Both the position numbers and the translations under genes were made by a program. Under the pieces are notes generated by a model. The model was not told where the DNA came from and ran no database searches. It saw only the letters and a list, made by a program, of their open reading frames with translations. Positions 3,071 to 26,928 of a DNA stretch of 27,258 nucleotides are shown here, piece after piece (the first letter of the stretch is position 1; each line of letters opens with the position of its first letter). The DNA comes from a virus, in IMG/VR virus record IMGVR_UViG_3300028284_000025, positions 1 through 27,258 of that record; one strand, 5' to 3'.

Positions 3071-3889
3071 ATGGGAACTCAAACAAAATTCTTTACCGAG
3101 TATGGTCATAAGGACTTAGGTAATACCGAGATAGATGGGAGTTTGGTCGTAAGTGGAAACTTAACGGTCAATGGTACTCAGACTATTATCGATTCCACAA
3201 CGACCTCAGTTACCGATTCAATGTTGGAACTTGCAAGTGGTAACACTACTGCAGATTTAATTGACATTGGTTTCTATGGTAACTATAATGATGGTTTGAG
3301 TGGTGAGTCGGGAGTATCAGAATACACAGGTTTATTCAGGGATGCAAGTGATTCAACATGGAAGTTATTTGATGGTCTAGAAACAGAACCAAGTACTACA
3401 GTAGATTTATCGGGTGGAAACTATTCACTTGCTGATTTACAATTGGGTGATTTAACCTCATCTACATTGACTGCAGCTGGTCTATCTTACCCGTCTAGTG
3501 ACGGTTCTAACGGACAAGTTTTAACTACCAATGGTAGTGGGACACTTTCCTTCCAAGATGCAGGAGGTGGACTTACAGCAGGTTCTATAACAACAACATC
3601 AACAGCTCAAGCAACTTTAGACTCATTTGCAATTGCAAGTTATAGAAGTGTAAAGTATCAAGTTCAAGCAACAGATTCCACTTCGGGTGAATACCATGTC
3701 ATTGAGATAATGGTCTTACATGATGGTACTACTGCATATCATTCACAATATGGTGAAATGTATACAGGGTCGTCTCCTTTGGGGACATTTACGGTAGATG
3801 TCAATATTAGTAGTGCAAGATTGAGGGTGACTCCTGCGAGTTCCAACTCAACAGTATATAAATTTAAAAAGATTGAGATATCTGTCTAA
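3071..3889 (+). CDS. tail fibre-like structural protein with shared C-terminal domain
   Basis: This 272-residue protein belongs to the second cap class: MGTQTKFFTEYGHKDLGNTE resembles the starts of the genes at 3979 and 4197. A module with GSLVVSGNLTVNGTQTIIDS and TDSMLELASGN follows (about residues 24-60). Next comes a DGSNGQVLTTNGSGTLSFQD segment typical of fibre proteins. The C-terminal domain (about residues 184-272: VKYQVQA, YHVIEIMVLHDGTTAYHSQYG, VDVNISSARLRVTPASSNST) is shared with the two genes upstream, across the terminator. The start is chosen because the late box sits five bases before it. The likely role is a virion fibre or adhesin. Confidence 0.75.
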   Translation: MGTQTKFFTEYGHKDLGNTEIDGSLVVSGNLTVNGTQTIIDSTTTSVTDSMLELASGNTTADLIDIGFYGNYNDGLSGESGVSEYTGLFRDASDSTWKLFDGLETEPSTTVDLSGGNYSLADLQLGDLTSSTLTAAGLSYPSSDGSNGQVLTTNGSGTLSFQDAGGGLTAGSITTTSTAQATLDSFAIASYRSVKYQVQATDSTSGEYHVIEIMVLHDGTTAYHSQYGEMYTGSSPLGTFTVDVNISSARLRVTPASSNSTVYKFKKIEISV

Positions 3890-3978: not shown

Positions 3979-4197
3979 ATGGCAACACAGAACAAATTCG
4001 TAATAGAATATGGTTTAAGCGTTGGGTCAACTGATGTTATCGACTCTAATGGAAAGGTGGTTGCAGCTGCAATCTCTAACTTAGACACGGATGACTTATC
4101 AGAAGGTTCAACCAACCTCTTCTTCACAAACGCAAGATTTAACTCAAGCTTTGATACAAGACTATCAAATGCAACTGTTGATGGAGGTACTATCTAA
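3979..4197 (+). CDS. mini fibre protein, 72 residues
   Basis: The N-terminus (MATQNKFVIEYGLSVGSTDV, then IDSNGKVVAAA) is a close paralogue of the start of the next gene (MAGEKNFIIKNGLTVGTTEI, then INSSGIVAGSA). The rest holds one copy of the repeat found several times there (LSEGSTNLFFTNARF). The protein then stops, and its TAA shares one base with the ATG of the next gene, so translational coupling is likely. It reads as a one-repeat version of the 792-residue neighbour: either a truncated duplicate or a small cap or adaptor subunit. The weak ribosome site TAGGAA is upstream. Confidence 0.65.
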   Translation: MATQNKFVIEYGLSVGSTDVIDSNGKVVAAAISNLDTDDLSEGSTNLFFTNARFNSSFDTRLSNATVDGGTI

Positions 4198-6575
4198 TGG
4201 CTGGTGAAAAGAATTTCATAATCAAGAATGGTCTAACAGTAGGAACTACTGAAATAATCAATTCTTCAGGTATAGTTGCTGGTTCAGCAGTTAACGAAGC
4301 AATTGATGACAGACTTAACAGTACACTTGTTGCTGGTTCGGGTATCTCACTTGCATATGATGACAGTGCAAATACTTTAACAGTTACAGGTAATGTTGGT
4401 GATATCACTGGTGTGAATGCTGGTGCTGGTTTGACTGGTACTGCTACTTCAGGTGATGCAACACTAAACATTGGTGCTGGAACAGGTATTACAGTTAATG
4501 ATGATACAATCGAGATTGATACAACTTTGGTTGCAACATTAACAGGTACACAGGGTTTAACAAATAAAACAATCACAAGTCCAGTAATAAACACTGGTGT
4601 AAGTGGTTCTGCAATACTAGACTCAGACACTATGACAGGTGCAAGTGCAACAACACTTTCATCTTCAGAATCTATTAAAGCATATGTTGACTCACAAGTT
4701 CAATCAAAAGATGCATTATCAGAACTTTCGGGTTCTACGGATGATGTTTCAGAAGGCGGAAGTAACCTATACTTCACAAACGAAAGAGTTGACGACAGAG
4801 TTAATTCATTAATCGTTGGTGGAACAGGAATCACATCTACATACGATGACACTGCTGGAACACTAACACTTACTTCAGAAGTTGGAGATATCACTTCGGT
4901 AGTTGCTGGAGATGGTCTAACAGGTGGTGGAACTACTGGTGACGTTACACTTGCAGTTGGAGTAGATGATTCTTCTGTAGAATTATTTTCAGATGCACTA
5001 AGAGTTAAAGCTAGTGGTATTACAGATGGTATGTTAGCTGGTAATATTTCAAACAGTAAACTTACTAATTCGGGTCTAACAGTTAACGGTGCAACAATAC
5101 CATTGGGTTCAAGTGGGTCATTTAATACAGATGCAACTTCAGAAGGTTCGTCAAATCTTTATCATACAACAGAAAGAGTTCAAGATGTTGTTGGTACAAT
5201 GGCGACTGCTGGAACAAACATAACACTTACATACGATGACTCTGCTGGAACACTTACAATTAACTCTTCAGGTAAAACACAAGAAGAGATAGAAGACATC
5301 GTAAACGGATTAGTAGTTGGTGGAACAAACATCACTTCTACATACGATGACTCTGCTGGAACACTTACACTTGCTGGTTTATCAGATGCCGATATAAGAG
5401 GTCTAGTATCTGCTGGTGGTGATTTATCATACAACAGTAGTACTGGTGTAATCTCGTTCACAGAAAGAACAGATGCAGAGGTTAGAGGTTTAGTTTCAGT
5501 AACAGATGCGGGTGGAGATGGTTCACTTGCATACAATAGTTCAAATGGTGTAATAACATACACTGGTGCAAGTCAGGCGGAAACAAGAGCTCACTTTAGT
5601 GCTGGAACTGGTGTTGGATACAATAATGGTGTTATCAGTATTGGTCAAGCAGTTGCAACTTCGAGTGATGTTGCATTCAACGACTTGACACTTGCTGGTG
5701 ACCTAGTTGTTAATGGTACTACTACTACAGTTAGTTCAACTAACACAACCATGACAGATGGTTTAATCGAACTTGGATACGGAACTACAGGAACACCTAC
5801 TAACGATACTGGTATCGTTATAGAAAGGGGTGATTCTGCAAACGCATTCATCGGTTTTGATGAGAGTGCAGATAAGTTTACAATGGGTACTGGTACATTT
5901 ACTGGTGCAACCACAGGTAACCTATCAATCACTACAGGAACTTTAGTTGCTAATGTTGAAGGAAACTTAACAGGAAACGTAACTGGTACAGTTTCTAGTT
6001 TATCTAATCATTCTACTAGTAATGTATCTGAAGGGTCAAACCTCTACTTTACAAACGAAAGAGCTCAAGATGCAGTCGGTGGTATGTTTACAGGTAATAC
6101 TGAATCAGGTATTACAGTTACATATAATGATGGTGACGGTACAGTAGACTTTACAGTCGGAACACTTAACCAATCTACATCAGGAAACGCTGCAACTGCT
6201 ACAACATTGCAAAATGCAAGAACTATATCAGGTGTATCATTCAATGGTTCTGCAAATATTACACTAAACACTAGTGCCATTACTGAAAACGGTAATTTAT
6301 ATCACACCACTGCAAGAGCAAGAAGTGCATTATCACACACTGCAGGAACAGGTGGATATAATAGTTCTACAGGTGTTATTTCAGCACCTACACATACTTC
6401 ACACTTGACAAATAACTCAAATTTTGCAGTTACAGGTGCAAGTGCGTCGTTTACAACATTGAGTACTACTAACGCATCCAATAGTGGTGGTGTTGCTAGG
6501 AATGTTTACCAATCAACATCAGCCCCAGCAGCAGGTGATGGTATGGTGGGTGATTTATGGGTACAATATTCTTAA
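4197..6575 (+). CDS. large repetitive tail fibre protein
   Basis: This 792-residue Thr/Ser/Gly-rich fibre protein is translationally coupled to the 72-residue gene (TAATG overlap). Two interleaved repeats can be read. SEG-NLYFTNER-like units lie near residues 182, 312, 608 and 700. TYDDxAGTLT-like units lie near residues 53, 214, 344, 381 and 641. About residues 500-590 hold a DLVVNGTTTTVSSTNTTMTD module with IGFDESADKF, a diverged copy of the module in the gene at 56. The C-terminus (VYQSTSAPAAGDGMVGDLWV) is a common end for such proteins. This is likely a long trimeric side fibre or adhesin. No chaperone domain is visible. Confidence 0.8.
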   Translation: MAGEKNFIIKNGLTVGTTEIINSSGIVAGSAVNEAIDDRLNSTLVAGSGISLAYDDSANTLTVTGNVGDITGVNAGAGLTGTATSGDATLNIGAGTGITVNDDTIEIDTTLVATLTGTQGLTNKTITSPVINTGVSGSAILDSDTMTGASATTLSSSESIKAYVDSQVQSKDALSELSGSTDDVSEGGSNLYFTNERVDDRVNSLIVGGTGITSTYDDTAGTLTLTSEVGDITSVVAGDGLTGGGTTGDVTLAVGVDDSSVELFSDALRVKASGITDGMLAGNISNSKLTNSGLTVNGATIPLGSSGSFNTDATSEGSSNLYHTTERVQDVVGTMATAGTNITLTYDDSAGTLTINSSGKTQEEIEDIVNGLVVGGTNITSTYDDSAGTLTLAGLSDADIRGLVSAGGDLSYNSSTGVISFTERTDAEVRGLVSVTDAGGDGSLAYNSSNGVITYTGASQAETRAHFSAGTGVGYNNGVISIGQAVATSSDVAFNDLTLAGDLVVNGTTTTVSSTNTTMTDGLIELGYGTTGTPTNDTGIVIERGDSANAFIGFDESADKFTMGTGTFTGATTGNLSITTGTLVANVEGNLTGNVTGTVSSLSNHSTSNVSEGSNLYFTNERAQDAVGGMFTGNTESGITVTYNDGDGTVDFTVGTLNQSTSGNAATATTLQNARTISGVSFNGSANITLNTSAITENGNLYHTTARARSALSHTAGTGGYNSSTGVISAPTHTSHLTNNSNFAVTGASASFTTLSTTNASNSGGVARNVYQSTSAPAAGDGMVGDLWVQYS

Positions 6576-6616: not shown

Positions 6617-8878
6617 ATGAGTCAAAAGGTAAAAACACCTTCGGGTTGGAATTCAACCCAAGGTGCTTGGGTTAAAACCGCATCAGGTACATGGAAAGCT
6701 GTATCTGATATACAAATAAAAACGCCGACTGGGTGGGTTGCAGCCTCAGGTCAACGAAACACACAACAACCATACCCTGCAAATAGTCAGACATCGTACC
6801 CTGCTTCGAGTCAAACTGCCTATCCTGCAAGTAGTCAGACACCGTTTACTTATCCTGCTTCAAGACAGAATACTTATCCTGCAGCTGCTCAGACACCGTT
6901 TACTTATCCTGCTTCAAGACAGAATACTTATCCTGCTTCGAGTCAGACACCGTTTACTTATCCTGCTTCAAGACAGAATACTTATCCTGCTTCGAGTCAG
7001 ACACCGTTTACTTATCCTGCGTCAAGACAGACAGCATATCCTGCAAGTTATCAGATACCGTTTACATATCCTGCAAACAGTCAGACACCATATCCTGCTG
7101 GGTATCAGATACCATTTACTTACAGTGCGAATGCTCAAAGTACATATCCTGCGATATATCAGATACCATTTACTTATCCTGCGTCAAGTCAAACTCCGTT
7201 TACTTATCCTGCGTCAAGACAGACATCATATACAGCAGATACACGGATATCTGCTAGACAACCAGTGAATGGTCAAACACCATATCCTGCAATTTATATC
7301 GCACCTGCTAGACAACCAGTGAATGGTCAAACACCATATCCTGCTGGGTACATTGCATCTGCTAGACAACCAGTGAATGGTCAAACACCATATCCTGCTA
7401 CATATCAAGCAAGACAACCAGTAAGTGGTCAAAATCCATTTACTTATCCTGCTTCGTACACTGCTAGACAACCAGTGAATGGTCAAAATCCATTTACTTA
7501 TCCTGCTTCGTACACTGCTAGACAGCCATTTACTTATCAGATACCATTTACTTACAGTGCTAATTACATTGCTAGACAACCATTTACTTATCAGATACCG
7601 TTTACTTACAATGCAAATTATTCTGCATCTGCTAGGTCTCCAAGAAATGGTCAGACGCCATATCCTGCGATAACAACTTATATAGCATCTGCAAGGACTC
7701 CAACAAGAGTTCCTTCAGGAATACCATATACCTATATTCAGACGATTCCAGTAACGGTGCCTGGCGGCCCGCAAACGCCAGGGTCTTTTCAACAGATTAA
7801 GGGTGGGTCTTATAATTATAGAACACCTAATCCTTTTACTTACCTTTTGCCTGCTAGTGGTAACACCGAAACAAATGCTCAACAGCCGTATACTTATACT
7901 GCGAATACTAATTACACTGCTAGACAACCATTTACTTATCAGATACCGTATACTTACCCTGCTATATATCAAGCACCTGCTAGACAACCAGTGAATGGTC
8001 AAAATCCGTATCCTGCAATTTATATCGCACCTGCTAGGTCTCCAAGAAATGGTCAAAATCCGTATCCTGCAGCCTATCAAGCACCTGCAAGACAACCGTT
8101 TACTTATCAGATACCATATCCTGCAGCCTATCAAGCACCTGCAAGACAACCGTTTACTTATCAGATACCGTATATTGCTAATTACATTGCTAGACAACCG
8201 TATACTTATCAGATACCATTTACTTATCCTGCTTCGTACATTGCTAGACAGCCATTTACTTATCAGATACCATTTACTTACAGTGCGAGTTATCCTGCTA
8301 GACAACCGTTTACTTATCAGATACCATTTACATATCCTGCAACGTATATTGCGAGACAACCTGCAATCTATCAAGCGAGTGCAAGACAACCTGCTATATA
8401 TCAAGCACCTGCTAGGTCTCCACATGCCTATATTGCAAGGTCACCAAGTATATACCAAGCACCTGCAAGACAACCAGCTGGATATGATGCAAGACAACCT
8501 GCTATATACCAAGCACCTGCAAGACAACCTGCAATCTATATTGCAAGACAACCTGCTATATATCAAGCACCCGCGAGACAACCTGCAATCTATATTGCAA
8601 GACAACCTGCAATCTATCAAGCACCTGCTCGTCAACCTGCTATCTATATTGCGAGACAACCTGCTATATACCAAGCACCTGCTCGTCAACCTTCGATTTA
8701 TATTGCGAGACAACCTGCAATCTATCAAGCACCTGCGAGACAACCTGCGATTTATGTTGCGAGACAACCTGCAATCTACATTGCACAACAACCTGCAACT
8801 TATATTGCAAGAACTCCTGTAGATAGATGGGATGGTGTGTTACAACAGAATTGGCCTGCGACACCTATTTCAGGTTAA
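6617..8878 (+). CDS. Tyr/Pro/Ala/Gln/Arg repeat protein, probable virion adhesin
   Basis: This is a 753-residue protein of no family I can name with confidence. Residues 1-46 form a small cap with a twice-used motif (VKTPSGW...WVKTASGTWK...IKTPTGW), probably for virion attachment. Residues about 50-734 are built of 8- and 10-residue units such as QNTYPASS, QTPFTYPASR, QPAIYIAR and QPAIYQAPAR, which often pair into 18-residue blocks. Unit type drifts along the chain: PFTYPASRQ, then ARQPVNGQTPYPA, then ARQPFTYQIPFTY, then ARQPAIYQAP. A non-repetitive, Gly/Pro-rich break lies at residues about 361-420. The end (VDRWDGVLQQNWPATPISG) is unique. It has no cysteine, few acidic residues and many Arg. 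Composition recalls extensins and mussel foot proteins. A late box and AGGA precede it. Open frames in other registers across the repeats are artefacts of repetition. Confidence 0.8.
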   Translation: MSQKVKTPSGWNSTQGAWVKTASGTWKAVSDIQIKTPTGWVAASGQRNTQQPYPANSQTSYPASSQTAYPASSQTPFTYPASRQNTYPAAAQTPFTYPASRQNTYPASSQTPFTYPASRQNTYPASSQTPFTYPASRQTAYPASYQIPFTYPANSQTPYPAGYQIPFTYSANAQSTYPAIYQIPFTYPASSQTPFTYPASRQTSYTADTRISARQPVNGQTPYPAIYIAPARQPVNGQTPYPAGYIASARQPVNGQTPYPATYQARQPVSGQNPFTYPASYTARQPVNGQNPFTYPASYTARQPFTYQIPFTYSANYIARQPFTYQIPFTYNANYSASARSPRNGQTPYPAITTYIASARTPTRVPSGIPYTYIQTIPVTVPGGPQTPGSFQQIKGGSYNYRTPNPFTYLLPASGNTETNAQQPYTYTANTNYTARQPFTYQIPYTYPAIYQAPARQPVNGQNPYPAIYIAPARSPRNGQNPYPAAYQAPARQPFTYQIPYPAAYQAPARQPFTYQIPYIANYIARQPYTYQIPFTYPASYIARQPFTYQIPFTYSASYPARQPFTYQIPFTYPATYIARQPAIYQASARQPAIYQAPARSPHAYIARSPSIYQAPARQPAGYDARQPAIYQAPARQPAIYIARQPAIYQAPARQPAIYIARQPAIYQAPARQPAIYIARQPAIYQAPARQPSIYIARQPAIYQAPARQPAIYVARQPAIYIAQQPATYIARTPVDRWDGVLQQNWPATPISG
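6764..8818 (+). repeat. tandem coding repeats, 24- and 30-base units in 54-base blocks
   Basis: The DNA repeats with the protein. Blocks of 54 bases (18 codons) recur. Near 6836-7010 the copies are almost identical, which points to recent tandem duplication. Toward 8340-8800 the same peptide unit is spelled with different synonymous codons (for example CCTGCAATCTAT and CCTGCTATATAT), so those copies are older and held at protein level. Distances between successive AR(Q/S)P motifs are 8, 10, 16, 18 or 20 codons, never odd in the copies I counted. The array is interrupted at about 7697-7876. Confidence 0.9.
7760..7782 (+). other. GC-rich intragenic hairpin
   Basis: CCTGGCG (7760-7766) pairs perfectly with CGCCAGG (7776-7782) across a nine-base loop. 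It lies in the non-repetitive break of the repeat gene and is by far the most GC-rich patch of the region. GTCTTTTC follows, which is only weakly terminator-like. Confidence 0.6.
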
Positions 8879-8940: not shown

Positions 8941-10491
8941 ATGAGATTAAACAGTAGAATAAACCCAATAGACGCTCCCAAAATAGTAGAAAAATACAAT
9001 ATCCCCACATTAGATTGGAGTGCGGATGGAAACGTAGACGCCTATTTACAGGAGTTGGGAAAGGTTAATATAGACCTTGGAAAAATACATCTATATAAAG
9101 ATTCCAAAATTCCCGAAGACAATAGAAAGGTCAAAGTTTATGAAGAAATTCGTAAACAAAATCTTGTACCACCAACTAAAATGTTAACTTGGGGTGAATT
9201 AAAAAAACACGACTTAATTGACATTGATATGGGTTTGGAATATGAGGTTGAAACTTACCTCAACATGAATTACCGTGGTTACACAGGTGGTATTCACAAT
9301 CAAGCTGGTGATACAGGACTGACTGATGATGAGTTGAATTCAGTAGGTAGTACCTTTTACCACTCCACGAAAGCCCATTGGATGATTCATGACATCAAAG
9401 AAAATGGTCTAGTAAATCCAGTACAAGGATGTCTCTACGCATATCGTAGTGATTGGAGTGACAGCGGAATAAGATATAGACTCCATATCCACCCAGGCTC
9501 TATTAGACAATCAATGTATAAAATTTTAGATGATGATTCACTTCCAATTTTGTTAGCAGACCCCTATGATTACCTAGAAAGTCCCGAATTAAGTGTACAA
9601 GAACATTTGGATATTTTTGCAGATTCCTCACTTCAAACTACTGAAATTAGTTTAGATTATCATAATGGATATATGCAAATATGGCCCACCCAGTTGACAC
9701 CTAGACTAGACAGTTGGAGAAAAAGAGTGTCAGAATTTGGTAAGAGTGTGTTTGAATTAACTGAAGGAAAACCCTTTAACATTTATATTGGATACGACAG
9801 TAGACATGAGGAACTTCCAAAGGTTTCTAGAAACAGTATACTAAGACATCTAAATGGTCACCGTTCACGAGGTATGAGTGATTTAGAATGTTTCAAACCC
9901 GAAATTAAATTCCTTGACAAATCAAAAATTCCCGAGTATACTAGAGAATATGCAGGTCAAAGTACTGAGTTTACATACAGTAGATTTTTAATACCATACC
10001 TAGAAGACTATAAGGGAATTTCATTGTTCATTGATGATGATATGATTTTTACTAAAAGTCCTTTACCACTGTTCATGTTCCTACACCCCGATGATGCCGT
10101 TGCAGTGTGTAAGTATGATTATGACAATCTACACACACCTGAAACTAAGTTTGATGGTGAGAAGAATGTCTCTTATCCTAAGAAATTGTGGTCAAGTATG
10201 ATGGTATTCAATAATAGTCATGAAGACTGCAGGAAGTTGACACCTGAAGTTATTAATACCGAAAGTGGAAAGTATCTACACCAGTTTGAGTGGACAGATA
10301 TGGTATCCGAAATACCTACTAAATACATACACAATGAGGGGTATGATGATGTTAAACCCGATGCATTTGGGTTTCATTATACAAGGGGAGGCCCTTGGGT
10401 AAAAGGACAAGACTGTTCTGATATCACAAACTTAAAAAACTACAACATTGAAAAGAATTGTCTTGAACTAGACGGAGAAATTAACTTATGA
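8941..10491 (+). CDS. ParB-like domain fused to GT8-like glycosyltransferase
   Basis: This 516-residue protein has two parts. About residues 1-270 include FYHSTKAHWMIHDIKENGLVNPVQG and RYRLHIHPGSIRQ (139-190), which loosely recall the ParB/Srx pattern (a 'G..PV' strand then 'G..R'). This assignment is weak. Residues about 277-490 look like a GT-A glycosyltransferase of GT8 type: FNIYIGYDSRHEE (279-291), TEFTYSRFLIPYL (342-354), the metal-binding DDD at 365-367 in SLFIDDDMIF, then KKLWSSMMVFNN and a late His motif HYTRGGPW (479-486). It is expected to transfer a sugar from a nucleotide sugar. The acceptor is unknown, and the nearest candidate is the repeat protein just upstream. The gene overlaps the next by four bases (ATGA), heading a coupled cassette. 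Confidence 0.7.
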   Translation: MRLNSRINPIDAPKIVEKYNIPTLDWSADGNVDAYLQELGKVNIDLGKIHLYKDSKIPEDNRKVKVYEEIRKQNLVPPTKMLTWGELKKHDLIDIDMGLEYEVETYLNMNYRGYTGGIHNQAGDTGLTDDELNSVGSTFYHSTKAHWMIHDIKENGLVNPVQGCLYAYRSDWSDSGIRYRLHIHPGSIRQSMYKILDDDSLPILLADPYDYLESPELSVQEHLDIFADSSLQTTEISLDYHNGYMQIWPTQLTPRLDSWRKRVSEFGKSVFELTEGKPFNIYIGYDSRHEELPKVSRNSILRHLNGHRSRGMSDLECFKPEIKFLDKSKIPEYTREYAGQSTEFTYSRFLIPYLEDYKGISLFIDDDMIFTKSPLPLFMFLHPDDAVAVCKYDYDNLHTPETKFDGEKNVSYPKKLWSSMMVFNNSHEDCRKLTPEVINTESGKYLHQFEWTDMVSEIPTKYIHNEGYDDVKPDAFGFHYTRGGPWVKGQDCSDITNLKNYNIEKNCLELDGEINL

Positions 10492-13570: not shown

Positions 13571-14386
13571 ATGGCAGAACCAAATTCAAAAGCATCACTA
13601 AAAGAGTATATCAAGAGAAAACTTGGAGCTCCTGTATTGGAAATCAATATAGATGACGACCAATTAGATGACAGAGTTGATGAAGCACTCCAATATTTCC
13701 GTGAGTATCATTACGATGGTTCTATTAAGTGTTATCTAAAACACCAAATCACTCAAGAAGAACTTACTTCATTCAAGACAAATTCAAGTGTGACAGCTGC
13801 AACAAGTGGTACACAAGCAATTGCAAACCAAACTTATGGTGAACAACAAAACTATGTTACACTACCCGAACATGTACTAAGTGTAATTAATATATTCCCG
13901 TTTAGTAATGGTGTGTCTAATAATATGTTTGATATGAGATATCAACTTAGATTGAATGACTTGTGGGATTTAACATCTACAAGTGTTATGTATTATTCTC
14001 AAGTTCAACAACATCTCTCACTTATGGACGACATGTTAGTGGGTAGAACACCTATAAGATACAATACACATAGTAACAGACTATACATGGATATGGACTG
14101 GGACGGTGTGAATGTGGGTGAGTATATTCTTATTGAGTGTTATAGAAAGTTAGACCCAACAGACATGACTGATATCTATAACGATATGTGGTTAAAGAGA
14201 TATGCAACTTCACTAGTTAAGTATCAATGGGGTGAAAACCTTTCTAAGTTCTCAGGTATGACTTTGCCAGGCGGAGTTACACTAGATGCAGAAAACATGA
14301 AAACAGAAGCCAAAGAAGAGATTACAAAATTAGAAGAAGAGTCTAGACTGAACTATGAAATGCCAGTCATGGACATGATGGGATAA
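13571..14386 (+). CDS. gp13: neck protein gp13
   Basis: This 271-residue protein is somewhat shorter than T4 gp13. The N-terminus (SLKEYIKRKLGAPVLEINID, then LDDRVDEALQYFREYHYDGS) is the strongly conserved start of gp13 in marine T4-like phages. LPEHVLSVINIFPF and YRKLDPTDMTDIYNDMW follow, and WLKRYATSLVKYQWGENLSKF near the end is also typical. gp13 joins the filled head through the portal to the tail as part of the neck with gp14. It is first in the gp13-gp17 run, right after a late promoter, and four bases before gp14. Confidence 0.92.
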   Translation: MAEPNSKASLKEYIKRKLGAPVLEINIDDDQLDDRVDEALQYFREYHYDGSIKCYLKHQITQEELTSFKTNSSVTAATSGTQAIANQTYGEQQNYVTLPEHVLSVINIFPFSNGVSNNMFDMRYQLRLNDLWDLTSTSVMYYSQVQQHLSLMDDMLVGRTPIRYNTHSNRLYMDMDWDGVNVGEYILIECYRKLDPTDMTDIYNDMWLKRYATSLVKYQWGENLSKFSGMTLPGGVTLDAENMKTEAKEEITKLEEESRLNYEMPVMDMMG

Positions 14387-26436: not shown

Positions 26437-26892
26437 TCAGAAATCTCCCTCAGCAACTTGAACTACTGTAGTACCTCTGTCTCTCCACATTTGAACAACT
26501 TGATTTCTGTCATCAAAGACAATATCAATCTTACCACCCAATGATTCAAACTTGTCTGCAAGTTCCCCTTTAAATACATCATCCTTCCTAAAATCACCAT
26601 CGGGTCTCAAGAACAACCCTTTATGGTCATCCCCAATCCATTCAGAAATCTGTTGTTCTGTAATGTCCCTTTCAGATTCGTTTCTTGCAGAGAAGAATGC
26701 AACATCATCACCAAGTGCAATGTGTCTTTTTGCAATATCACAAACCCATTGAACAGGAGTGTCAAATTTAGTCTGTTCTCTGAATGATTTCCAGTCTTTC
26801 CAGCTATCTGTTCCATCCACAAAATGTCTTCTATGTTCACAGTCTGCAATGGTTCCATCTACATCAAAAATTATTGTTTGTTTTTTCATCAT
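26437..26892 (-). CDS. stand-alone Pnk-type 3'-phosphatase (HAD superfamily)
   Basis: This 151-residue HAD hydrolase resembles the phosphatase domain of T4 polynucleotide kinase (PseT) without its kinase domain. Motif I is FDVDGT (D10, D12). Motif II is FFSAR (S68). RKDDVFK (102-108) and IVFDDRNQVVQMWRDRGTTV followed by the end VQVAEGDF align with the T4 Pnk strings around its RKDDV lysine and DDR aspartates and its VASGDF end. Expected activity is removal of 3'-phosphate or 2',3'-cyclic phosphate from RNA ends; a nucleotide phosphatase is the alternative. I start it at the ATG of 26892. The longer TTG start at 26928 is rejected because that TTG is part of a promoter -35. It is the only minus-strand gene in the window. 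Confidence 0.85.
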   Translation of the reverse strand: MMKKQTIIFDVDGTIADCEHRRHFVDGTDSWKDWKSFREQTKFDTPVQWVCDIAKRHIALGDDVAFFSARNESERDITEQQISEWIGDDHKGLFLRPDGDFRKDDVFKGELADKFESLGGKIDIVFDDRNQVVQMWRDRGTTVVQVAEGDF

Positions 26893-26898
26893 GTATAT

Positions 26899-26928
26899 AG
26901 TATACCACTTTATAGGGGACACTGTCAA
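26899..26928 (-). promoter_or_regulatory. sigma70-type promoter for the HAD gene
   Basis: On the minus strand TTGACA (26928-26923) and TATACT (26904-26899) are separated by 18 bases. Six bases later comes the ATG at 26892, about where transcription should begin, so this mRNA too would be leaderless or nearly so. The -35 is a perfect consensus, implying use of host RNA polymerase early in infection, unlike the late-box genes around it. Confidence 0.72.

Follow-up and report, generated by a model that had tools for sequence, protein, structure and literature searches.

A repeat protein of a marine T4-type phage, probably the fused form of a two-strand antiparallel fibre

The window analysed here, a 27,258-nucleotide stretch of IMG/VR virus record IMGVR_UViG_3300028284_000025, encodes a capsid protein 67% identical to that of Methylophilales phage Melnitz and 64% identical to those of Pelagibacter phages, and we therefore assign it to a T4-type (Kyanoviridae-like) marine phage. 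Gene order at the locus runs from fibre-like genes through the repeat-protein genes (A/B) to a GT8-like gene, 2OG-Fe(II) oxygenase genes, gp13 and gp14. The upstream structural/tail-fibre-like gene (4197..6575, + strand; phrog_697) is syntenic in 88 of 92 loci, and the GT8-like glycosyltransferase gene (8941..10491, + strand; a weak match to PF01501 and a match to phrog_28018) lies downstream in all 92. A gp13-like head-tail adaptor (13571..14386, + strand; phrog_211) is followed by gp14 and gp15 homologs. The putative fibre locus stands shortly before gp13 in a T4-type late operon, the site of T4 gp12/wac.

Several neighbours deserve mention in their own right. Fibre-like proteins at 56-1714, 1735-2562, 3071-3889 and 4197-6575 form a related run, sharing a short N-terminal module and VNGT-TTV modules (phrog_697, phrog_15769). 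The unbroken linkage of the GT8-like gene to A/B is unusually tight, and its product may glycosylate the fibre; glycosylation of hydroxyproline by the neighbouring 2OG oxygenases and the glycosyltransferase stays a weak idea because genes of the 2OG type occur at scattered sites in phages of this kind. The ORF after the capsid gene (26437-26928, − strand) carries an N-terminal FDVDGTIAD motif (HAD-like phosphatase). The locus also occurs on contigs binned as Bacteroidota MAGs (L146, Sphingobacteriales; L147, Flavobacteriales), possibly a clue to the host and possibly a binning error.

The window's repeat protein is a complete ORF of 753 amino acids (6617..8878, + strand), 92% identical to homologs L001/L002 and 80% identical to L003. 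It opens with an N-terminal base domain (aa 1-46, 6617..6754, KVKTPSGWNSTQGAWVKT...KTPTGW..ASGQ), which aligns at 80-96% identity with protein A of two-gene relatives and has no family match in PHROG or PDB. There follow, all on the + strand, strand A of a proposed hairpin (aa 50-362, 6764..7702), which pairs antiparallel with aa 734-422; the tip (aa 363-421, 7703..7879), which falls outside a two-residue register and is the sole site of odd proline spacings; strand B (aa 422-734, 7880..8818), identified by the pairing and reversed-profile tests below; and a C-terminal base motif (aa 735-753, 8819..8875, VDRWDGVLQQNWPATPISG) that aligns with the conserved end of protein B in two-gene relatives. 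The earlier note had placed its repeat protein at 6764-8818, which is codons 50-734 of the ORF and coincides with the segment now found paired.

Most relatives encode two adjacent genes, A and B, instead of one fused ORF. The conserved N-end of protein A, KVKTPxGWNSTQGAWVKT..KTPTGWNNASGQ, is followed by the repeats and these by an end that varies; in protein B the repeats lead into a conserved C-end, RWDGxxxQQWPATPIS. Among 93 distinct sets, 69 are in the order A-B, 13 in the order B-A, and 11 are fused in one ORF; the fused proteins form two groups, one with the window protein, L001 and L003, the other with L147, L149, L150, L151, L155, L156, L158 and L159. In two-gene relatives the ends of A that stand in place of the window's tip are Hint-like, globular or rich in Gly, and over the sets we counted 43 short or Gly-rich tips, 22 Hint-like, 17 other globular and 11 fused loops.

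The Hint/intein-like domain, which the window protein does not carry, occupies the C end of A in about 22 two-gene sets (for example L028:7240-7761, L027, L037, L038, L142, L171 and L146). In the sequences we read, the residue after their terminal HN is F, Y, M or G and not Cys, Ser or Thr; the domains resemble intein/Hint and bacterial intein-like domains apart from this missing residue, which makes cleavage likelier than splicing. They may serve in self-cleavage or in attaching the tip to something.

A second class has unrelated end domains, N-terminal M(A/S)DEIYINTKN and C-terminal KVKAVYLNDAGTLRKLQEVYVN, and its members (L205, L214, L215, L219 and L229-L259) are likewise fused or two-gene; hhalign lent no support (probability 1.6%) to homology of these end domains with those of the first class. 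The C-end of this class has a weak match to phrog_13729, a degenerate second-class ORF lies at L146:2-748, and some phages seem to encode both ribbon classes.

The repeats keep a strict two-residue register. In the window protein all 31 distances between AR[QS]P motifs are even (8, 10, 16, 18 or 20, plus one of 96 that spans the central interruption), as are the spacings of YPA (28/28), TY (34/34) and ARQP (27/27), and over aa 51-740 the autocorrelation is strong at lags 18, 36 and 54 and depleted at every odd lag up to 60. The rule extends to the family: among 40 non-redundant homologs taken from viral contigs, consecutive prolines stand at even distances 2075 times and at odd distances 60 times, and the odd cases listed all lie outside the repeats: at the N-start of B, in the tip, or in C-ends of A that carry no repeats. 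Within proline runs the non-proline parity is held by Tyr (1425:11), Phe (669:9) and Ala (1221:120); the runs were chosen for parity, a selection from which the Tyr and Phe counts are free. The even spacing that the earlier note saw in the window thus reaches far beyond it, and the segregation of Pro from Tyr and Phe supports, across the family, its reading of the register as extended beta structure with two faces.

Insertions and deletions respect the same register. Between the window protein and L003 they measure 18, 18, 2, 2, 1, 2, 2, 2, 18 and 18 aa, the sole odd one sitting in the non-repeat centre. This single residue puts the second half of L003 on the opposite absolute parity, yet the two halves of that protein still pair P-parity with P-parity, which indicates that the register is set by pairing and not by counting along the DNA.

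The super-period is far less constant. It is 18, 20, 30, 44 or 46 residues in different homologs and also changes along a single chain, so the 18-residue solenoid coil that the earlier note had offered as part of its interpretation is not supported as a general rule; the two-residue beta register survives, and conservation lies in an antiparallel, residue-by-residue match of two strands. The description of the DNA itself was borne out: 54-nt units of the first array are near-identical copies (nucleotide identity 0.94, amino-acid identity 0.93), and the last array has drifted synonymously (0.84 and 0.93).

Compared as sequences, the repeat strands of A and B match, ANTIPARALLEL. Their lengths correlate at r=0.988 across 34 loci spanning 213-551 aa, and again at 0.988 across 57 sets. 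Period spectra correlate at 0.966 between own partners vs 0.504 for others, the own partner ranking first in 18 of 20 cases. The order of shared 6-mers was ambiguous in several loci, and we therefore used local-period profiles and then residue pairing. The local-period profile of A matches that of reversed B (mean 0.84) and not that of forward B (0.02), and the reversed match appeared in 22/22 sets, the window's own two halves included.

For residue pairing we set A residue i opposite B residue c-i, so that i+j is constant, and learned the pair table iteratively. One offset emerged for 54/57 sets, with P-parity facing P-parity; the difference of one in the window's offset there comes solely from an earlier cut, by one residue, of its half. 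With whole clusters left out (16 clusters), the same register was recovered in 56/58 sets and the remaining two were shifted by one 18-aa unit; parallel A-B arrangements all scored negative, and non-cognate partners scored far below cognate ones, close relatives excepted. A table learned from two-gene sets, with fused proteins left out, picked c = ai+bi+1 out of 121 constants in all 11 fused proteins, and gave the base-anchored register in 93/93 A/B sets, part of which were in training. Applied to the second class, this table found a single dominant antiparallel register scoring 68-196, whereas the runner-up scored 16-58 and the parallel arrangement 10-17. The i+j register anchored at the base is thus common to all sets and fused proteins, and the complementarity generalises to held-out viruses, both across left-out clusters and in the second class.

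The pairing approaches a code. Its main pairs are P:Q/R, Y/F:A/G, V:Y, N:T, E:S and H:N. Weighted over 32 clusters, P-parity positions are dominated by P:Q (27.7%), P:R (25.8%) and N:T (16%), followed by I:Q, S:T, I:N, I:S and A:I; the other parity holds A:Y (17.9%), A:F (14.2%), R:Y (9%), Q:T (7.4%), V:Y (5.3%) and G:Y (4.7%), then H:N and E:S. Proline faces Q with frequency.49 and R with.46, E faces S with.95, and R at P-parity faces P with.97. Mutual information is 1.55 and 1.36 bits per pair, and the like pairs Y:Y, A:A and P:P are nearly absent (0.02, 0.07 and 0.07 of expectation). Paired residues complement one another in volume (SD 36.8 vs 49.7 when shuffled; correlation -0.42), and this large-small pairing, Y/F against A/G, is in line with cross-strand preferences known from beta-sheets. 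Such comparisons show the parity rule, the antiparallel match, the universal register and the pairing code, and give the pairing strong support.

Paired positions also change together. In 34 disjoint comparisons we counted 261 co-changes vs 119 expected, with the maximum at offset 0 and swaps that include A:S/S:A, Q:T/T:Q and N:S/S:N; the facing residue could be diagonal, because co-change at offset -2 is nearly as high (245). Lengths change in concert between diverged nearest neighbours, where A/B differences read 18/18, -18/-18, -36/-36, 42/42 and -164/-144. Pooled over all pairs, nearest-neighbour length contrasts correlate at only 0.56, because near-identical contigs sometimes gain or lose a unit in one strand alone (e.g. 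18/0, -20/0, 0/44). Contig pairs that differ by at least one unit in one strand are L121/L122, L124/L128, L099/L101 and L066/L068; such differences may be assembly collapse or recent events still uncompensated.

A hairpin is the best reading of the window protein, with aa 50-362 antiparallel to aa 422-734 and a 59-aa tip. At i+j=784 (1-based) its 313 pairs have a mean score of 0.65, vs -0.05 for the best circular shift and 0.30 for the maximum of 2000 shuffles of 18-aa blocks. Proline faces Q 44 times, R 28, T 15, I 11 and P 2; tyrosine faces A in 72/83 cases; and of 22 phenylalanines 15 face A and 7 face G. Pairs close to the base fit the code less well, at 0.1-0.4 each, than those close to the tip, at 0.8-1.2. 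Indels relative to L003 are mirrored across the hairpin: +2 at 318/319 goes with +2 at 465, summing to ~784, and -2 near 330 goes with -2 near 451. Four unit types follow one another along the chain because each stretch must complement the stretch opposite.

We consider it likely that the window protein is the fused form of a two-strand antiparallel fibre with a fixed register that sets aa i opposite aa 784-i. Across the family, the fibre is likely made of two polypeptides, from two genes or as one hairpin, that run antiparallel and are zipped by a residue code over 150-550 residues. The likeliest structure would be a long antiparallel beta-ribbon, since a slip-free two-residue register and one-to-one antiparallel contact fit it. 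Alternate residues of such a ribbon would point their backbone NH toward the partner or toward the free edge; proline would be tolerated only at free-edge positions, in agreement with the parity seen, and prolines there would block edge-to-edge aggregation. The Y/F/A face would suit the bundling of several ribbons, which is possible, and the opposite face would carry P/Q/R/N/T. The two conserved ends, N-terminal in A and C-terminal in B, would come together at a base for virion attachment, with the variable tip (a short loop, an end rich in Gly, or a Hint-like or globular domain) distal, and 313 pairs at 0.33 nm would give a fibre about 100 nm long. From these patterns we infer a beta conformation, a 1:1 ribbon and a role as virion fibre or whisker in host contact, the last suggested by gene position, with its fibre-gene synteny and gp13 nearby. 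Low-confidence AlphaFold2 monomer predictions, from shallow repetitive alignments, produced no hairpin for the window protein at full length, aligned with 20 homologs (pLDDT 37), or for the shorter fused L147 with 7 fused homologs (pLDDT 35).

The pairing could be real and the object something other than a virion fibre, such as an intracellular scaffold or a secreted filament; in favour of this, the protein has no match in cultured phages. We regard this as unlikely, as the locus always lies between fibre-like structural genes and neck genes, and conserved ends combined with variable tips are what adhesive fibres have. Rather improbable, too, is a multi-chain beta-solenoid or intertwined beta-helix in which A and B are antiparallel neighbours and the chain winds in 18-20-residue coils. 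Super-periods of 18 and 20 are common, even-length units would also suit a coil with alternating inward and outward side chains, and phage fibres are usually trimers; yet an unconserved super-period that changes along one chain sits badly with winding, and a coil should add contacts from i to i+period, whereas the best A-A and B-B scores are 19-46 vs 180-250 for A-B, with no rival register.

Returning to the antiparallel ribbon, two further explanations of the sequence patterns are most improbable. The likeness of A and B could stem from concerted evolution or recombination between repeat arrays whose products never touch, in keeping with the many 6-mers common to both and recent DNA duplication in the arrays; recombination between direct repeats keeps order, however, and here the match is antiparallel in all 22 sets compared, pairs unlike residues (P:Q, Y:A), and holds one register, anchored at both base ends, throughout 93 sets and both classes. 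DNA-level causes (antisense pairing, inverted repeats) left no signal, with a match of 0.28, and were rejected. A disordered Pro-rich linker or spacer, grown by X-P dipeptide expansion and without defined structure, would explain the low-complexity composition, the many prolines and the low AlphaFold confidence, but in disorder neither the partner residues nor a two-residue register should be under selection along 200-550 aa. A PPII repeat is three residues, not two, and dN/dS is 0.32-0.38.

The ribbon has partial counterparts among known systems. T4 fibritin (wac) and gp12 are fibrous virion proteins with one conserved and one variable end, encoded just before gp13, as here by synteny. Beyond gene position the likeness is by analogy: they are homotrimers (a parallel coiled coil in fibritin, a trimeric beta-structure in gp12) in contrast to two different antiparallel strands with complementary residues, we found no sequence similarity to wac or gp12, and the window protein and its N-domain have no PHROG family. 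Triple-stranded beta-helices and triple beta-spirals (T4 gp5 C-terminal domain, gp12, adenovirus fibre) are alike in building rigid rods from short extended units with alternating faces. These shafts are homotrimers of parallel chains with a fixed 8- or 15-residue repeat; A/B, in contrast, has varying unit lengths, needs two chains and scores negative in parallel, a score with no bearing on homotrimers. Beta-solenoids with 18-residue coils, such as the left-handed beta-helix, share the window's 18-residue super-period and even-length units, whereas in this family the period varies and the antiparallel match between halves or genes is conserved. Antiparallel beta-sheets place aromatics opposite Gly or Ala (aromatic rescue of glycine), as found here; such cross-strand preferences are otherwise known as weak statistical tendencies of short strands, in contrast to a pairing that is nearly code-like over 150-550 residues.

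The repeats had no match above cut-off in Pfam, PHROG, NCBIfam or PDB, the PDB search returned no solved relative, and database searches did not find the protein in cultured phages. A match in Arthrobacter phage Atuin lay on the strand opposite an annotated gene and was rejected as chance. In the stretches examined of Melnitz, HTVC008M and Mosig, no ORF had a run of at least seven same-parity prolines. Phage fibres in general are familiar, and as far as can be told a sequence-encoded antiparallel two-protein zipper is new; a literature search conducted mostly outside subscription journals found no account of such a fibre.

We suggest that these proteins probably form ribbons of about 50-180 nm in widespread uncultured marine phages, with length, partner specificity and register written in sequence as in a nucleic-acid duplex. 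Strand pairing in proteins is normally too degenerate to be deduced from sequence. In these proteins complementarity close to a code extends over hundreds of residues and, confirmed by covariation in many virus lineages, makes partner and register readable. If the structure is as proposed, it would let a virus build a long fibre extremely economically, offer natural rules for programming beta-ribbons, and serve as a direct test case for beta-sheet pairing rules and for edge protection by proline. It would also be a likely host-contact structure for widespread uncultured T4-like phages.
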